Source: an uncultured Sulfolobales archaeon
GTDB lineage: Archaea; Thermoproteota; Thermoprotei_A; Sulfolobales; NBVN01
Length of the DNA: 64,000 nt
Direction: 5' to 3'
Assembly: GCA_937949785.1 (NCBI GenBank)
Contig: CALEDH010000008.1
Location: 106,028-170,027 of the forward strand
Position 1 is the stretch's first letter. Each line of letters begins with the position of its first letter. Below, piece after piece: positions 35,604 to 37,310 of the stretch. The notes under the pieces were generated by a model. That model searched no databases. It had not been told where the DNA came from and saw nothing but the letters and a program-made list of their open reading frames with translations. Made by a program: the position numbers and the translations under genes.

Positions 35604-35951
35604 ATGGTGGGTGTTATGAATGAAATTATCATTACAACTCTTGAAGACGTTCCCGGCTATAAGGTTAGGAAGGTTTTAGGCATAGTTAGCGGTAGTGTGG
35701 TGAGGGCTAGGAACATCGGTAGGGACATCATCGCAGCTCTAAGAAACATAGCTGGAGGTGAGATAGTAGAGTATACAGAACTCTTAGCTCAGTCAAGAGA
35801 TGAAGCTGTTAGAAGGATGGTGATGAAGGCTAAGGAATTAGGGGCTAATGCAGTAGTTGGTATGAGGTTCGCATCATCAAACGTTATGAGTGGTGCGGCA
35901 GAAATATTAGCTTACGGAACAGCTGTCATATTAGAAAGGGAATCAGATTAG
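35604..35951 (+). CDS. YbjQ/UPF0145 (DUF74) family protein
   Basis: EIIITTLEDVPGYKVRKVLGIVSGSVVRARNIGRDI...MVMKAKELGANAVVGMRFASSNVM...YGTAVIL. Confidence 0.9.
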   Translation: MVGVMNEIIITTLEDVPGYKVRKVLGIVSGSVVRARNIGRDIIAALRNIAGGEIVEYTELLAQSRDEAVRRMVMKAKELGANAVVGMRFASSNVMSGAAEILAYGTAVILERESD

Positions 35952-36204
35952 GTCCATCACCTAATAGCCTAAATCGTTTAACACCACCTCTAAAGCAGTG
36001 TATACTGCTAGCAAGTTAGTAGGTGTAGCTGTTTCTAAATAATTAACTCTCCACATCCTTTCTCTAACACCGCTTACATGGTAGGAGCTATGTCTAAGAG
36101 GTGGTTGAAGGTGTTAAACAACTTACTAGGATGTCTGAGTATTAGTATTACTGCTCACTAAGCCTTTAAAGTTAATATATCTGAAACGTAGTTAACTTTA
36201 AGTA

Positions 36205-36253
36205 GTGATGAAGGTTAGATTATCTGAGATGTGATGTACGGTTTCGGGACTGA
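36205..36253 (+). ncRNA. C/D box sRNA (2'-O-methylation guide)
   Basis: C GTGATGA 36205-11; guide aggttagattat 36212-23; D' CTGA 36224-27; 3-nt spacer; C' GTGATGT 36231-37; guide acggtttcggga 36238-49; D CTGA 36250-53. Both guides exactly 12 nt. Confidence 0.8.
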
Positions 36254-36383
36254 GCTGTATGATAAATCTCATAGCTACGTACATTAAATTAGTGCTTTCA
36301 TTAGTTATTTTCCACTGTTAGTTGTGGTAGATAGGTTATCGATGTTGATCGATGTTTTAGGGTTTACGCTATTGATTTACAGA

Positions 36384-37310
36384 TTACACTTTATGTGAGA
36401 GTCCGACCAATTCATCAACTCTTCTCACATTGATTTCGGACATGTAGCTCTTGATGAGACTCACTATTTCCTTAATTATCGAGGGTGGGTTATTAATTAG
36501 GGCCGACACTAATTGAACTGCTTTAGCGCCTGCTAATATGAATTCTATAGCTGTTTCGTAGTTGAAAACTCCTCCAACACCGACTATATCACATTTAAAC
36601 TCCTTAAACACTTCGTAAACAACCCTAATAGCTATTGGGTGGAGTGCATGTCCTGAGAGCCCTCCAATACGTGCTGTGAGTACGGGTCTTCCGGAGTAAA
36701 TATCTATCTTCATACCCCTTAAAGTATTCACTAAGACTAAGACATTCGCCCCTGCTTCTAAGGACTTACCTGAAACGTCTATGACGTTATCCCAAGGCCC
36801 TAACTTAACCCACGTAGGTATTTTAATTGCGGAACTCACATTCTTTACAACTTCATAAGTTGTTTGGGGGTCCCTACCTAACTCAGCTCCTAAGCCCTTA
36901 ACATGTGGGCAGCTGAGGTTTAACTCTACTGCAGATGCTTTAGCTTCATCAGCGATAACTGCTAACTCAGCGAATTCCTCAACACTACTACCTGCAACAC
37001 TAACCACTATAGGTGTATCGTACTTCACACCGATACTGACCAATTCCTTAACCACCTTAATACCTGGATTCGCAAGCCCTACAGCATTTAGGTATGAGTT
37101 ACAGCCTAACTCAACTATTATAGGTGGTAGGTAACCCTCACGTACATCCTTAGTCAGCGTTTTAGTTACTACGGCTGCTGGCTCACCCTCCCTAATCAAC
37201 CTATTAATAAGTTCTGGCCTATCACCTAAGACTCCAGAGCCAACCATGACCGGGTGTTTAAGTCTTAAACCACTAATTAATACCTCAACTATAACTTCCC
37301 CTACCAACAA
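36384..37310 (-). CDS. pyrD: Dihydroorotate dehydrogenase catalytic subunit
   Basis: MVGSGVLGDRPEL, ELNLSCPHVKGLGAELGRDP, GGLSGHALHPIAIRVV, GVGGVFNYETAIEFILAGA; in pyr cluster. Confidence 0.93.
   Translation of the reverse strand: MLVGEVIVEVLISGLRLKHPVMVGSGVLGDRPELINRLIREGEPAAVVTKTLTKDVREGYLPPIIVELGCNSYLNAVGLANPGIKVVKELVSIGVKYDTPIVVSVAGSSVEEFAELAVIADEAKASAVELNLSCPHVKGLGAELGRDPQTTYEVVKNVSSAIKIPTWVKLGPWDNVIDVSGKSLEAGANVLVLVNTLRGMKIDIYSGRPVLTARIGGLSGHALHPIAIRVVYEVFKEFKCDIVGVGGVFNYETAIEFILAGAKAVQLVSALINNPPSIIKEIVSLIKSYMSEINVRRVDELVGLSHKV

Follow-up and report, generated by a model that had tools for sequence, protein, structure and literature searches.

Does a compact run of four short boxes, lodged between a plus-strand and a minus-strand gene of an uncultured Sulfolobales archaeon, represent a functional guide RNA, and, if so, which nucleotides of the ribosomal RNA does it address? 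We considered this question in a window of 64,000 nucleotides (the whole stretch of DNA that was analyzed), in which direct reading of the sequence gives the following features:

36205..36253, plus strand: C/D box sRNA core, from C to D box (motif, simulation and 59 parsed orthologues)
36205..36211, plus strand: C box, GTGATGA (sequence; TGATG kept in the orthologue alignment)
36212..36223, plus strand: D' guide, AGGTTAGATTAT, 12 nt, with the predicted 23S target CCAAUCUAGCCC
36224..36227, plus strand: D' box, CTGA (sequence and alignment)
36228..36230, plus strand: D'–C' spacer, GAT, the 3-nt k-loop (sequence)
36231..36237, plus strand: C' box, GTGATGT (sequence and alignment)
36238..36249, plus strand: D guide, ACGGTTTCGGGA, 12 nt, with the predicted 23S target ACCCGAAACCGG
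36250..36253, plus strand: D box, CTGA (sequence and alignment)
36172..36179, plus strand: putative TATA-like promoter element, TTAATATA (sequence; 33–26 nt before the C box)

The initial annotation had read the coordinates, boxes and spacers of this element exactly. The boxes depart from the RTGATGA/CTGA consensus only in the final base of C' (T), and the two 12-nt guide spacers with a 3-nt D'–C' spacer conform to the archaeal C/D box sRNA pattern. The gap, previously put at about 430 bp, measures 432 bp (35952–36383); it is bounded on the left by a UPF0145-like ORF on the plus strand (35604–35951) and on the right by a dihydroorotate-dehydrogenase-like ORF on the minus strand (36384–37310, with its 3' end at 36384), both named from a reading of their translations rather than from a family search. 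The AT-rich upstream stretch that had been pointed out before is likewise present, and its spacing suits an archaeal transcription start about 4 nt upstream of the C box. Conservation of a TATA-like element was not found across the order, where the AT profile shows a weak rise only, between about −40 and −28; the sRNA is probably transcribed from a weak promoter of its own. Reading and folding revealed no clear terminal stem beside the C/D k-turn here, while some relatives possess one (e.g., GGGC...GCCC in family f7), and the single-strand fold of the sRNA is no more stable than that of shuffled sequences. A weak fold is not unusual for an RNA that is kept open by protein. The same gap also harbors a stretch of about 145 nt (35976–36119) that is closed by a 10-bp inverted repeat (GTTTAACACC / GGTGTTAAAC) and has internal hairpins and a fold z-score of −2.4. 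A search for copies of it in the host genome or 30 relatives yielded only short matches of 19–36 bases, and it is possibly another RNA or the remnant of an element.

The weak terminal stem, together with a single G–U pair in the D' duplex described below, could be taken to mean that the boxes are a chance arrangement, or that they belong to a decayed sRNA gene without expression. We consider this highly improbable. The window contains a single instance of the strict four-box motif, whereas neither its strict nor its loose form appeared in any of 60 simulated 64-kb sequences (first-order Markov). Moreover, near-identical copies from the MAG SKYB66, a member of the same genus as the host, and from Zestosphaera tikiterensis NZ3 of the same family (genomes G001 and G002, respectively) retain both guides and the four boxes. 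Across the host genome (1.39 Mb in 29 contigs, 87% complete), the strict pattern recovers 10 loci and, when read backwards, none, which suggests that this genome uses such RNAs generally. The nine other strict candidates include G000:C1:195024-195074 (L149), whose D' guide contains GAAACCGGG, which has the sense orientation of the helix 35 segment that the present sRNA would target. Genes for fibrillarin (E = 1.2e-101) and Nop5 (E = 1.8e-73) are also present in this genome.

BLAST recovered close copies in the genomes G001, G002, G004, G031 and G041. These five and the host's own copy were used to build a six-sequence model, which, when searched against 229 genomes of the class, matched 70 of them at E ≤ 0.01, the weakest of these matches being doubtful. 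The same dual guide could be parsed in 59 orthologues from families f1, f2, f3, f5, f6, f7, f9 and f10 of the order and from f12, the sole family outside the order with a parsed orthologue. Their genomic settings vary: among thirteen loci and six others, the host's gene neighborhood (pyrC, pyrD, the sRNA and UPF0145) is kept only in SKYB66. Such variable contexts are usual for archaeal C/D sRNAs (PMC7994747). In three relatives (L087 of G012, L092 of G003 and L113 of G018), the sRNA lies directly after, or overlaps, a cysteine-rich (Fe-S) terminus that, judged by eye, seems to belong to an endonuclease III-like gene.

The initial annotation had made its reading depend on complementarity to rRNA of the same genome, and the search that we ran found it for both guides, with a Watson–Crick pair at position 5 in each case. 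Positions 2–11 of the D guide form 10 Watson–Crick pairs with ACCCGAAACCGG in the host's 23S rRNA (L002:1336-1347), a quality of match reached by just 0.34% of 12-mers drawn at random from the window. The nucleotide singled out by the D+5 rule is a G, joined to the guide by a C–G pair and aligned with G674 of E. coli K-12, a number that places the target in the helix 35 region of domain II. Helices 35/35a have been described as a hotspot of predicted archaeal methylation (PMC4644070). Thus, the methylated G of CCCGAAAC that had been proposed earlier was correctly chosen, whereas its best-supported location is in domain II, at G674, and not in domain I. A 200-nt archaeal 23S query matched only five of 5,426 E. 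coli genomes, in one 23S copy each (e.g., L066, NZ_CP074576.1, CS18F); the hits may reflect an atypical segment in those copies, or they may be no more than borderline in E-value.

For the D' guide, to which no target had been assigned, pairing and conservation across the family now point to the equivalent of E. coli U790. Positions 3–11 form 9 bp, one of them G–U, with CCAAUCUAGCCC of the host's 23S rRNA (L002:1453-1464), 117 nt downstream of the D target, and the D'+5 nucleotide is a U engaged in a Watson–Crick A–U pair. Since about 7% of random 12-mers match this 23S rRNA equally well, the assignment draws on family conservation and not on the host genome by itself. Other sites in the same molecule, such as the one at L002:2344 (9 pairs, two of them G–U), were discarded, since [CT]TAGAT is maintained against CCAAUCUAG in almost the entire family. 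When 48 genomes were searched by pattern for the 23S target, it turned up in only some of them, a shortfall probably due to the many drafts in which 23S is missing or interrupted by introns. The host's own 23S gene (L002:530-4373, contig C12) is 3,844 bp long, compared with 2,987 positions in the model, which suggests introns, and in several relatives the 23S matches are split or interrupted.

The host's 23S rRNA offers the D guide a second site: the domain I stretch TCCCGAGACCGA (L002:1010-1021, near E. coli position 440) pairs with it over 11 contiguous base pairs, including one G–U, which is one pair longer than the match in domain II. This stretch might accordingly be the main D target, or the RNA might serve both sites. 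The decision between the sites comes from guide–target covariation, which was assessed in the 18 of the 59 genomes where the sRNA as well as the 23S segment was readable, a number set by the lack of readable 23S in most drafts. In all 18, the 23S base at position 673 (C or A) agrees with the guide base opposite it (G or T). C673 faces a guide G in the host (G000) and in G002, G004, G014, G026, G045 and G046, and A673 faces a guide T in the other 11. The switch is found within family f6 (G045, which we take to be Ignicoccus hospitalis, versus G035) and again within family f7 (G046, presumably Pyrolobus fumarii, versus G055, G185 and G187), so it is not a single inherited change but reflects several independent switches. 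Free shuffling of the labels gives full agreement with a probability of 3e-5, a rough figure only, as the genomes are related. The D' site of G046 displays a second compensatory change, with CCAATCGAGC in the 23S rRNA and GCTCGATTGG in the guide, which supports the U790 region as the D' target. Thus, complementarity appears to have been maintained by compensatory change at both sites, as expected of an archaeal C/D sRNA. The domain I site does not follow: in G041, a genome of the Ignisphaera family, it reads TCCTGAGACC and is mismatched by the guide's T, while the domain II site has changed to A in step with that T. All the compensatory switches track position 673 of domain II, and the 673-type guides also cover the A that precedes CC on its 5' side, as suits domain II. 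We therefore dismissed the domain I site as the principal D target, and consider a role for it, whether as principal or as second site, very unlikely.

Taken together, the motif, its conservation across the family, the covariation, and the fibrillarin and Nop5 genes of the host uphold the initial reading of a dual-guide C/D box sRNA, and we hold with high confidence that the locus is a canonical archaeal member of this class, with its D guide directed at G674 and its D' guide at U790, both in domain II. As judged from sequence, it most likely directs the 2'-O-methylation of two nearby positions of the large rRNA. Once transcribed, the RNA would be expected to assemble with L7Ae, Nop5 and fibrillarin on the k-turn (C/D) and the k-loop (C'/D'). 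In such a predicted RNP, pairing of the D guide with its target would place a 2'-O-methyl group on the equivalent of G674, and pairing of the D' guide would place one on the equivalent of U790; the simultaneous hold on both segments may also aid the folding of this part of domain II.

When the predicted methylated nucleotide is counted from the D box in the 59 parsed orthologues, the two guides behave differently. The D' guide aims at U790 in every one of them, while the D guide aims at position 673 in 37 genomes, 674 in 18 and 672 in 4. The 674-type comprises the host, its near relatives and all of family f2, which holds the Ignisphaera MAGs; the 672-type is found in genera g5 and g7 of family f1. 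The C'–D spacer is 12 nt in the typical 673-type as it is in the typical 674-type (AGGTTTCTGGTG versus ACGGTTTCGGGA of the host), so the complementary core has moved by one base within a spacer of constant length. An unusual feature thus appears to run through the order, with one predicted target site fixed and the other sliding over three adjacent nucleotides. We tentatively raise the possibility, which we regard as less probable than its converse, of an ancient, order-wide lineage of C/D sRNAs that Rfam lacks, with the U790 guide fixed and the other sliding over 672/673/674 in a spacer of mostly 12 nt. If this were true, it would imply that selection acts on pairing, and hence folding, above the exact methylated nucleotide. 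The 672/673/674 forms constitute a natural series in which a predicted methylation site moves one nucleotide at a time, allowing one to ask if the exact position of the methyl group is needed in archaeal rRNA or only the pairing of a guide with the region.

The same sliding, against a U790 that is always targeted, could mean that the exact position of the methyl group is less constrained than the pairing itself, and that the RNA is mainly a folding chaperone that bridges the regions around 674 and 790, methylation being weak or absent at one or both sites. A chaperone role has been proposed for dual guides (PMC4644070). We think this unlikely for the present sRNA, as in the host the D+5 and D'+5 nucleotides are both in Watson–Crick pairs, the boxes are intact and nothing in the element hints at lost catalysis.

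As for the relation of this methylation guide to catalogued families, neither the window element nor 20 orthologue loci have an Rfam 15 match at the gathering score. The best score is 24.1 bits against a cut-off of 45 (among snoPyro_CD, sR12, sR9, sR3, sR1, etc.), and assignment to a known Rfam C/D family was rejected for this reason; with a permissive threshold, low-scoring alignments appear for many archaeal C/D families, most of them in register. It is thus an uncatalogued new member of a well-known class, otherwise an ordinary housekeeping RNA, and the analysis adds a well-supported crenarchaeal guide RNA whose two targets have been assigned.

The sRNA resembles the archaeal dual-guide sR families (PMC4644070, PMC7994747) in its RTGATGA/CTGA boxes, 12-nt spacers and short D'–C' loop, as well as in carrying two guides to nearby sites of the same rRNA, following the N+5 rule and targeting the helix 35 hotspot. 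It differs from them in its pair of guides, which has no Rfam family at the gathering score. Ignicoccus hospitalis sR472 is listed with D directed to C897 and D' to G1017 in the alignment numbering of that work (PMC4644070, Table 3). By this table entry, sR472 is likewise a dual guide to 23S, its sites separated by about 120 nt, and the orthologue from G045 aims its D guide at C673; however, the D' base reported in the table is a G, which does not match U790.

Among eukaryotes, yeast snR39b guides the methylation of 25S Gm805 (PMC2806949, PMC5344495). It is a eukaryotic snoRNA, and its likeness to the sRNA studied here implies no homology. We take Gm805, in the context ACCCGAAAG, to be the equivalent of E. 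coli G674, its context ACCCGAAA presumably being the same as that of the D target. Yeast Um898 was rejected as the equivalent of U790 on distance, with 93 nt between 805 and 898 versus 117 nt here, a comparison that assumes the 805/674 equivalence; a literature search for the eukaryotic target sequence returned nothing useful. The closest parallel to the sliding comes from sR24/sR25 of Methanopyrus kandleri, in which indels at the ends of the D guide shift the site of methylation but leave the D' guide unchanged (PMC4644070). That case is a duplication inside one species, whereas the sRNA studied here has diverged between the lineages of an order.
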